Assembly (NCBI GenBank): GCA_035527535.1
Contig: DATLAK010000177.1
Coordinates: 1 to 43,566 of the forward strand
Length of the DNA stretch: 43,566 nucleotides
Source: Armatimonadota bacterium
Lineage (GTDB): Bacteria; Armatimonadota; Hebobacteria; GCA-020354555; CP070648
Direction of reading: 5' to 3'
Each line of letters starts with the position of its first letter. The first letter of the stretch is position 1. The notes below the pieces were generated by a model. It saw only the letters and a list, made by a program, of their open reading frames with translations, was not told where the DNA came from and searched no databases. Shown in pieces: positions 6,874 through 40,059 of the stretch. The position numbers and the translations under genes were made by a program.

Positions 6874-6878
6874 ATTGC

Positions 6879-6902
6879 AGGGGCAAGGCATGCCTTGCCC
6901 CT
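6879..6902. repeat. 24-bp perfect palindrome of the GTAGGGGC family
   Basis: Arms AGGGGCAAGGCA and TGCCTTGCCCCT meet without a loop, filling most of the thrC-purC gap. The same 24 bases occur at 37720-37743 inside the heparinase-like gene, so this is a dispersed repeat rather than a gene-specific terminator. There is no T-tract. Confidence 0.9.
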
Positions 6903-6913
6903 ACGGGGACTAC

Positions 6914-25356: not shown

Positions 25357-25429
25357 CGCAGAAGGCAGTTCACGGCCGGGCCCGGCGAGGACGGTAGAGC
25401 ACCGACGAGCAACCGCCGATGAGGGCCGA

Positions 25430-25461
25430 CCGTAGGGACGGTTCGCGAACCGTCCCTACGG
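25430..25461. repeat. 32-bp perfect palindrome in a convergent gap; possible bidirectional terminator
   Basis: Arms CCGTAGGGACGGTTCG and CGAACCGTCCCTACGG meet without a loop; a GTAGGGRC family member. It lies between the stops of the pseudoprotease (plus) and nrpR (minus). TTTCTCCGTCC follows on the plus strand, too weak for a firm terminator call. The rest of 25357-25526 holds a degenerate CTCTGCGCTCTCCGC repeat. Confidence 0.8.
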
Positions 25462-25526
25462 TTTCTCCGTCCGTAATCTCCGTCAACCTCTCTGCGCTCT
25501 CCGCAGTTTCGGCGGTTGGTCCCGGT

Positions 25527-37399: not shown

Positions 37400-40059
37400 C
37401 TGGCGAAGCGCTCCTCCCGCATCAGGTTTACGGCCAGCCAGCTCTTCCCTTTGACCTCCCGCTGCGGATAACTGGTGATGCGGGTGAGGTCCTGGGCCGC
37501 ATCATACTCGAATCCACTGTACGCCACGCAGAGCTTGATCCGGCGCGGCCCCACCCGCTCGGCGCGCGCGATGCGATAGGCCTGACTCGTGCGGTCACTA
37601 TGATGGACGATGGCCCAGTGTCCCGCCAGCCGCTCCACCGGGAAGGCCTCGTATTCAACCTCGATGGATTCGGGCGAAGCAGCCACCACCGTCGCCTCCA
37701 AGAGCCCGTGGTCATCGGTAGGGGCAAGGCATGCCTTGCCCCTACGCTCGCCCCAGGAGAACGCGCCCGCCCCTGCCGTCTGGGCCGCCACTTCGTCGCG
37801 CGAGCGGCGCATGACGCCATATCGCCCGGCGAAGGTCACCCGGCCCTCAGGCGTATTGCAGGTTAACGCCCGCTCCGCCCTCGTGCAAGTGGCGATGAGA
37901 TAGACCTGGTCGCCGCACTCCACCCGGACAAGCGCGGTCTCGTCATCGTGGGTCACCAGCTCGACCTGCGACACCAGGGCTTGCTGCTTCGCGCCAAGCG
38001 CCGGATCGTATACCGCCACGAACAGCGATCGCCCGTCGCGCGGCTGGCGACGGACCATCAGGAAGGGACGCGTGTACCTGTTGAGCTCGGCCTCGTTCTC
38101 ACGCGCCTGCCGGACTGACGGATTCCGGCCGTGGAATACCTCCGTGCCGGGCGCGCCCACGACGATGACGCGGCAGCCGGCGCCATCGGGGTACGCGAAG
38201 TCGGCTTGCCAGGTTTCGGACGTTTGCCCGCAGCGCAGGTTGGTCAGGAAGCCGTAGAGCAACTCGGGCTTCGCCAGCAGGCCGAAGTCGGTCCCGCCCT
38301 TAGGCCAGGCAAATGCCTCCCCTCGCGTCAGGCTTTCCGCCGGCTCGGTGGGTACGCTGATGCGCAGCGACTGCTCCTCATCCGCGCTGCCGTGGAGGAA
38401 CCAGTCGTGAGTCGCGCCCCCCGTGACGCGGAAGATGTCCACCACGAAGGGCAGTCCGCCCGGGCGATTCACCAGCGCCACCAGCCGCCGATAGACGGAA
38501 GAGCCCGGGTAAGCCGCCGCGGCCTCCGCCTCCACCACCGATGACAGGCTGCCCGCCGCGAACAGCCGCAGGTTGCCTTCAACGCCCCGGTATTCCTGGT
38601 TGCGCTGGTCCACCACCAGCGTGTTGTGGCTGGCGGTCGCCGTGGTCCAGACGCGGGCGCGGGTCCACGTGTAGCCGAGGTCGGACAGCATCTCCCGGCC
38701 CCGCGCCCACAGCAGCAGCGACAGGCTATCGGCGTGCGAATGCCCGTGGCCGGTCGAGTACTGCAAATGCGCCTGCACCTGGGCGGTTCCCTCGCCGGTG
38801 CCGAGGATGGCATGTCCGGCAGCGGGCAGCAGCTCCGGCTGGGAGTGTGCCAGCGGCTCGCCCTTGTCATACCACCAACTGTCGTGAATCGGCGCGTAGC
38901 GGCCATCCGGCAGCCGGGTGATCTGCAGCGCCGCCTGCGCCCGGGCGAACTGCGGGAACCACTGGTCCGGATCCAGCGCATCGAAACGCCGCCCATCGGT
39001 GGGCCATAGGTATCCCGGCGGATCGGAGTAGCCTCGCGCAGCCGCCATCACCTGCTCGAGCAGTTGAACAGTCTGAATGTGATAGGAGGGCGTGCCCTCT
39101 TTCCAGAAGCCGTCGTAGAGGAATCGCTCGTGCAGCAGCCGCTCGGCGCGCGCCATGGCGTCGTGAACGTAGTCCGGCTCGCCGACGACCCGTCCCGCCT
39201 GGATCATCCCCGTCCACACTAGGGGCGACATGTTGTCCAGCAGCTCCGGGTTTTGGCGCACCCATTCCACCGACCCGCGGAAGAGGTCGCGCTCGATGCG
39301 CGCGCGCATGTCGTCGGTGATCGCCGGGCTGTCGGCGATGAGGTCGTAAGCCAGGATCAGCTTGCCCGGGATGTCGCCGTAAGCCCACCAGTAGTAGCGC
39401 GCCGCGCGGTAGGGCTCCACCGGATATGGCGGCTTCACCTCCCGCCCGAAGAAGCGCTTGTTAGCGAACGGATAGTCGAACTTGGGTACATAGCCGGGAA
39501 CGACCACGGCGTACTGGTCAACCAAGGCCGCCGCCGCGCGCGCGAAGCGCTCGTCGTGGGTCGTGTCATAGACCTGGGCCAGCTTCAGCGCAATGCCGTC
39601 GTAGTAGTGGATCTGCTCGTACCACTTGCGCGCCTCGAAGTAGAAGTGCCGGCCGTCGCTGCTCCGGTGGTATGGGTAAACGTGGGTCTCGCCCCGCGAG
39701 TTCTCGACGCGCACCTCCCCCGTCGCTGGGTAATCGGGCGAGGGGTACACGTGGCCGCAGAACTGGCAGCGCACGCGGTCGGGATCCTGCGGCGACCATA
39801 CGATGTTGTTCTCTTCCGCACCGGCGGCGCAGTTGGGGCAGCCGCAGAAACGGACGCCCGACTGGCGCGGCACCAGCGACCGCAGCTCCTCCGGCGGCAT
39901 CTGCACATACCGCTCAAGCTGTGCCGCCATGACGGCGGCCGGCTGCGCTGCGATTCCGGCGGGATATACCGGATGCCGCACCTCGTGGGCGCCCGCCGTG
40001 TTTGCGCTCAACAGCAGCGCCCCGGCAAGGAGCAAGCCGGCATCGAGACTGATAGTCAA
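37396..40059 (-). CDS. Secreted heparinase II/III-like polysaccharide lyase family protein
   Basis: 887 residues. TTG start at 40059 is chosen because GGGAGG lies 6 nt upstream and a signal peptide follows at once (LTISLDAGLLLAGALLLSANTAGA). Residues 72-77 and 98-101 hold cysteines (CGCPNC, CQFC) resembling a zinc ribbon. An alpha/alpha toroid domain follows (YYDGIALKLAQVYDTT, KLILAYDLIAD, KEGTPSYHIQTVQLL). The beta-sandwich has the family motif STGHGHSHADSLSLLLWARG, with the His residues of heparinase II/III. Uronic-acid-containing polysaccharide is the likely substrate. Around residues 771-781 a 28-bp palindrome is translated as RRGKACLAPT-like sequence. Confidence 0.82.
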   Translation of the reverse strand: MTISLDAGLLLAGALLLSANTAGAHEVRHPVYPAGIAAQPAAVMAAQLERYVQMPPEELRSLVPRQSGVRFCGCPNCAAGAEENNIVWSPQDPDRVRCQFCGHVYPSPDYPATGEVRVENSRGETHVYPYHRSSDGRHFYFEARKWYEQIHYYDGIALKLAQVYDTTHDERFARAAAALVDQYAVVVPGYVPKFDYPFANKRFFGREVKPPYPVEPYRAARYYWWAYGDIPGKLILAYDLIADSPAITDDMRARIERDLFRGSVEWVRQNPELLDNMSPLVWTGMIQAGRVVGEPDYVHDAMARAERLLHERFLYDGFWKEGTPSYHIQTVQLLEQVMAAARGYSDPPGYLWPTDGRRFDALDPDQWFPQFARAQAALQITRLPDGRYAPIHDSWWYDKGEPLAHSQPELLPAAGHAILGTGEGTAQVQAHLQYSTGHGHSHADSLSLLLWARGREMLSDLGYTWTRARVWTTATASHNTLVVDQRNQEYRGVEGNLRLFAAGSLSSVVEAEAAAAYPGSSVYRRLVALVNRPGGLPFVVDIFRVTGGATHDWFLHGSADEEQSLRISVPTEPAESLTRGEAFAWPKGGTDFGLLAKPELLYGFLTNLRCGQTSETWQADFAYPDGAGCRVIVVGAPGTEVFHGRNPSVRQARENEAELNRYTRPFLMVRRQPRDGRSLFVAVYDPALGAKQQALVSQVELVTHDDETALVRVECGDQVYLIATCTRAERALTCNTPEGRVTFAGRYGVMRRSRDEVAAQTAGAGAFSWGERRGKACLAPTDDHGLLEATVVAASPESIEVEYEAFPVERLAGHWAIVHHSDRTSQAYRIARAERVGPRRIKLCVAYSGFEYDAAQDLTRITSYPQREVKGKSWLAVNLMREERFAR
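37718..37745. repeat. 28-bp perfect palindrome inside the heparinase-like gene
   Basis: GTAGGGGCAAGGCA and TGCCTTGCCCCTAC meet without a loop. Its inner 24 bases equal the intergenic element at 6879-6902. The reading frame continues through it, adding GKACLAPT to the protein. Confidence 0.92.

Follow-up and report, generated by a model that had tools for sequence, protein, structure and literature searches.

How does a palindrome that otherwise stands between genes come to lie, in frame, inside the gene for a polysaccharide lyase? The question is raised by a 43,566-nucleotide stretch of an Armatimonadota genome (hereafter the window), for which a sequence-only reading proposed that a mobile intergenic palindrome had added residues to a heparinase-like protein, as an independent case of what is known from Rickettsia. 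We traced the palindrome through its own genome and through other phyla, compared its host genes with relatives, and looked for an enzyme that might have carried it there.

A palindrome in the reading frame of a lyase gene

The element, GTAGGGGCAAGGCATGCCTTGCCCCTAC, consists of two 14-nt arms that meet without a spacer and form a perfect palindrome; a perfect one of 28 bp is expected by chance about 0.0002 times in 43.5 kb. The minus-strand open reading frame runs uninterrupted across it and the codon signal on both flanks lies in the identical strand and frame (Table 1), which bears out the description of an intergenic palindrome carried in frame by a lyase gene. The protein matches Hepar_II_III_C, and the residues derived from the palindrome fall outside this match, in the C-terminal part. 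Only one of the three frames of the 28-mer contains a stop (TAG). The other two are open and read VGARHALPL and RGKACLAPT, peptides that are unrelated to one another.

Identity between the inner 24 bases and a site between thrC and purC (6879-6902) had been noted; it holds (none of 100 dinucleotide shuffles gave a match, with up to 3 mismatches allowed) and extends further, to all but one of 28 bases, the sole mismatch being C for T at 6878. A second intergenic palindrome with another stem has the same build; its full extent is a perfect 34 bp (25429-25462, ACCGTAGGGACGGTTCG/CGAACCGTCCCTACGGT), also REP-like in build.

Table 1. Palindromic elements of the window and the gene that contains one of them.
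Feature	Position	Strand	Remarks
Double-foot GTAG REP, 28 bp	37718..37745	.	In the frame of the lyase gene; minus-strand reading RRGKACLAPT
Heparinase II/III-like polysaccharide lyase, 963 aa	37396..40287	-	REP-derived residues are 848-857
REP copy, 27/28 identical to the lyase copy	6877..6904	.	Intergenic, thrC-purC
Second double-foot palindrome, other stem, GTAGGGACGGTTCGCGAACCGTCCCTAC	25432..25459	.	Intergenic; same build

Copies in the genome and across phyla

A search of the genome (3.24 Mb, 192 contigs) with the 24-mer, allowing 2 mismatches, returned 52 copies and none for the reversed control, in keeping with the proposal of a dispersed mobile palindrome. Alignment of 41 copies shows a unit of exactly 28 bp with sharp edges at GTAG and CTAC, beyond which the flanking bases differ from copy to copy. 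GTAG is present at both ends in nearly all of the 41 copies and is able to pair with CTAC within the 28-mer, so the tag is neither one-ended nor unpaired. Target-site duplications were absent from the flanks of the 41 aligned copies and were not seen at two genic sites (HypF and helicase, below) compared with the sister genome. Single-foot copies with the window stem occur at L326 (2109-2132) and L248, and double-foot palindromes with other stems are also present in the genome (for example, GTAGGGGCGCATGGCCATGCGCCCCTAC).

The genome-wide count and scoring of genic copies that the sequence-only reading suggested place 4 of about 41 classified copies inside genes, the others being intergenic or at gene ends. 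Assuming that 85% of the genome is coding, this is a strong depletion (binomial P ~2e-26). The four host genes, identified by codon signal, encode the lyase, HypF (L182), an HRQ1-like DEAD helicase (L006) and a DUF6079 protein (L008), and all four have the same coding frame on both sides of the REP. Four further loci (NuoF, HisD, PNPase and PSP1) are genic by ORF span, yet their REPs turned out to be intergenic or at a gene end, and we rejected them. Double-foot variants with other stems in genes (contigs C33, C51, C84, C86, C95, C109, C149 and C176) included none that is in frame on both sides. In the PSP1-like gene (L183, 1506) the stop codon is a TAG supplied by the REP. Most copies would lie between genes because selection removes genic ones, and the lyase copy would have survived because the event preserved the reading frame, in an element whose stop closes only one frame of three.

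At six loci (L002, L007, L010, L169, L172 and L174) the REP lies inside a larger repeat (..gggcgcgacctc, REP, atccgcgccccgac..), which suggests that another repeat either takes REPs with it or serves as their target; a pattern search of the genome found no empty sites in the composite repeat around many copies. Two contigs terminate inside the palindrome (C179, 46890-46916, and C185, 35841-35867), probably as assembly breaks at a repeat.

Among 120 relatives from the phylum there was no copy, except for a 2-mismatch variant in one genome. The exact 24-mer is found in more than ten phyla among the matches listed, which include Chloroflexi, Planctomycetes, Cyanobacteria (Coleofasciculus, Pleurocapsa), Bacteroidetes, FCPU426, Peribacteria/Dojkabacteria, Omnitrophota, Nitrospirae, Deltaproteobacteria, Helicobacteraceae, Verrucomicrobia and Goldiibacteriota; these names come from genome titles, many of the genomes are MAGs, and an isolated contig may have been binned wrongly. 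In several of these genomes, however, there are many copies.

Transposase genes with matching palindromes

A PF01797 search of the genome identified three Y1 genes, one of which (L018) is flanked by REPs with a different stem, GTAGGGGC. Using a profile built from the RAYTs of element-rich genomes (A1), we found a fourth and best Y1 gene (C189:1650-2246), the RAYT gene listed at 1501-2172 of locus L326. PF01797 probably missed it because of an internal REP between the HUH and WQ motifs. This double-foot REP, GTAGGGGCGCACGGCCGTGCGCCCCTAC, is in frame and encodes VGAHGRAPLQ between NHIH and WQ. Upstream of the gene lies a near copy of the element, GTAGGAGCAAGGCATGCCTTGCTCCCTAC, and downstream a single-foot REP with the window stem, GTAGGGGCAAGGCATGCCTTGCCC, covers the last codons, giving the C-terminus RQGKACLAPT. 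The stem of the loop REP, GCGCACGGCCGTGCGC, is not the window stem, which occurs at the end of the gene only. The NHIH and WQ motifs are present, and YIADNP differs at one position from the consensus YIxNNP.

In an FCPU426 genome (nzgw216) a RAYT has the window stem on its flanks, in inverted orientation, and 33/56 related RAYTs have an in-frame GTAG hairpin in the HUH-FK loop, as against 0-3 for control 4-mers not overlapping GTAG (loci L248, L249, L232, L233, L153, L116, L064, L165, L256-L325). The internal REPs resemble the REPs that flank their own genes (mean identity 0.87 vs 0.57 when shuffled), a value reached in 0/2000 shuffles. We also observed that the loop hairpin is usually of the gene-flanking REP family, and that a further RAYT gene (L016, 1000-2095) lies within an array formed by another palindrome, GGGCGCGGGGTTCTCCTAACCCCGCGGGGCCCGC.

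Double-foot REPs, including in-frame REPs in tnpAREP between HuH and Y, have been described for TnpAREP/RAYT subclass 2.4, which is characterized by the motifs NH[IFV]H, WQ and YIxNNP and found in Cyanobacteria, Bacteroidetes and various phyla (Quentin et al. 2018, PMC6006769). The present element has in common with subclass 2.4 the GTAG...CTAC double foot, a GC-rich stem base and RAYT-flanking REPs, and differs in that the copy of interest lies in an unrelated host gene, the lyase. GTAG REPs lying in frame inside genes were described for many species in 2013 (Di Nocera et al. 2013, PMC3733652). That superfamily likewise consists of small GTAG palindromes of 20-40 bp, multicopy and dispersed, mostly extragenic and some in frame in genes, whose TAG can act as a gene stop codon, as in the PSP1-like gene here; however, its members have one unpaired tag, whereas GTAG stands at both ends here and can pair, as in the double-foot variant of PMC6006769, and the genic copies described here appear to replace host residues instead of adding to them. 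With these two descriptions already published, the lyase copy is not an independent case. Nor is it Rickettsia-like, although both involve palindromes that sit in the reading frame of protein genes: RPE-4 and RPE-6 are members of a CGTC-tagged superfamily, the REPs of which lack a dedicated transposase (PMC3733652), in contrast to the GTAG tag and the matching RAYT in the same genome here. The REPINs and RAYTs of Pseudomonas and E. coli also pair GTAG-type REPs with a cognate transposase of the HUH type, but the mobile unit there has been argued to be a REP doublet (PMC3116915, PMC2817692), in contrast to the single double-foot palindrome of the present case. Double-foot GTAG REPs with a subclass-2.4-type RAYT, and in-frame GTAG REPs in genes, are therefore already known.

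The lyase copy is very probably one of a dispersed family of double-foot GTAG REPs, most likely spread by the subclass-2.4-type RAYT on C189, which would be the candidate mover. Spread would proceed via single-stranded DNA, through this Y1/HUH REP-associated transposase (RAYT/TnpAREP). That the C189 enzyme moves the element is what we infer from the matching palindromes.

Length of the host genes and origin of the genic copies

Alignment of the lyase with its homologues, as the sequence-only reading had advised, shows that 17/17 (33-44% identity, from other families) lack the REP peptide; the same peptide in distant orthologues, which would have spoken for ancestral coding sequence, was thus not found. 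The sister genome has no lyase ortholog, and a search of genome contigs found no close lyase relatives. Although a MAFFT alignment suggested +7, counting residues from WG to a conserved LL pair gives 15 in the lyase and 12-14 in the homologues, a net gain of about +2 that rests on 33-44% identical sequences. The element was said to encode extra residues, and this applies to some two of them; ten were not added. Measured against the only sister genome, the three other host proteins changed by 0 (HypF, 77% identical to that of same-family genome G001), +1 (helicase, 82%) and +1 residue (DUF6079 protein, 65%), and the HypF and helicase orthologs of the sister genome are without the REP segment. 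These four values rule out a plain insertion of 10 residues in this genome.

In this genome host DNA appears to have been lost where the element came in: the lengths suggest that 22-28 bp were exchanged for it, whereas a clean insertion would have added 28-30 bp. In the lyase the REP would have taken the place of about 22 bp in the C-terminal part, presumably in one step, so that the protein grew by about 2 residues. Near length-neutral exchange at 4/4 genic sites of one genome is possibly new.

In-frame copies are also found in conserved genes of other phyla with Pfam or PDB matches (UppP, QueA with two copies, ValRS, CbiD, inositol monophosphatase, MutY and DnaE). Gapped alignments to distant PDB chains give net gains of +2 and +8 for UppP, +5 and +6 for QueA, +7 for ValRS and +8 for CbiD, and the gain is at least 10 in the inositol monophosphatases of FCPU426 and in many RAYT loops. 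Replacement therefore appears as a pattern of this genome, seen at four sites and weaker in other phyla, and may not hold as a rule. Both open frames of the palindrome are about equally used in Pfam-recognised genes of other genomes, which fits a passenger that the proteins tolerate and argues against a selected peptide, and the REP peptide probably has no function of its own.

Three accounts would do without a passenger spread by a RAYT. That the segment is ancestral coding sequence, palindromic by chance and merely resembling an intergenic repeat, has nothing but the open frame in its favor; it is refuted by the 17 homologues, which have unrelated sequence at this position, and by the sister-genome HypF and helicase orthologs, and given an exact match to some 50 dispersed copies we consider its probability negligible. 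If the palindrome were a device of protein evolution or a functional peptide module, favored by selection for its contribution to the lyase as has been proposed for the Rickettsia RPEs, the kept frame and the intact 963-aa ORF would fit. However, VGARHALPL and RGKACLAPT, unrelated as they are, both occur in Pfam-recognised genes and even together within one QueA (L114), and genic copies are strongly depleted (4/41), so that selection for the peptide is very unlikely. Perfect dyad symmetry and many copies in intergenic gaps would suit a MITE, or a transcription-terminator or regulatory palindrome, that owes its spread to recombination or a DDE transposase and not to a RAYT. Against this stand the missing target-site duplication, the GTAG feet, and the finding, in two genomes from different phyla, of RAYT genes with these stems on their flanks, and we think it very improbable.

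Within the preferred reading, spread of the REP by a RAYT, the near-neutral length could arise in more than one way. An element may have been plainly inserted and the adjoining host bases deleted later, with selection on protein length setting the outcome; the intermediate gains in UppP, QueA, ValRS and CbiD (+2 to +8) and those of at least 10 in FCPU426 and the RAYT loops favor such trimming, whereas all four sites in this genome stand at 0 to about +2 even though the loops vary in length between homologues, and we regard this variant as evenly balanced between true and false. Alternatively, double-foot REPs might spread by exchanging about their own length of target, as a single-strand patch at the replication fork, instead of inserting. 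We hold this to be rather unlikely, but if true it explains how a 28-bp unit, which is no multiple of three, comes to be in frame with protein length near constant. The route by which REP sequences reach new sites has been stated to be unsolved (PMC8266576), and a lineage with some 50 near-identical copies, a matching RAYT and empty sites readable from orthologs is suited to measuring what the event does to its target.

For annotation, peptides of the RGKACLAPT or VGARHALPL type in unrelated proteins are derived from REPs and carry no homology information. UppP of L149 (3246-4106) has two different double-foot REPs, both in frame, and QueA of L114 (3538-4689) has the same REP twice, one per open frame. 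Orthologous inositol monophosphatases of two FCPU426 species (L076 and L128) share one REP, which is in frame and at the same loop in both, and L128 contains an additional in-frame repeat, SPSPSRGEG..PHPNPLPQG.
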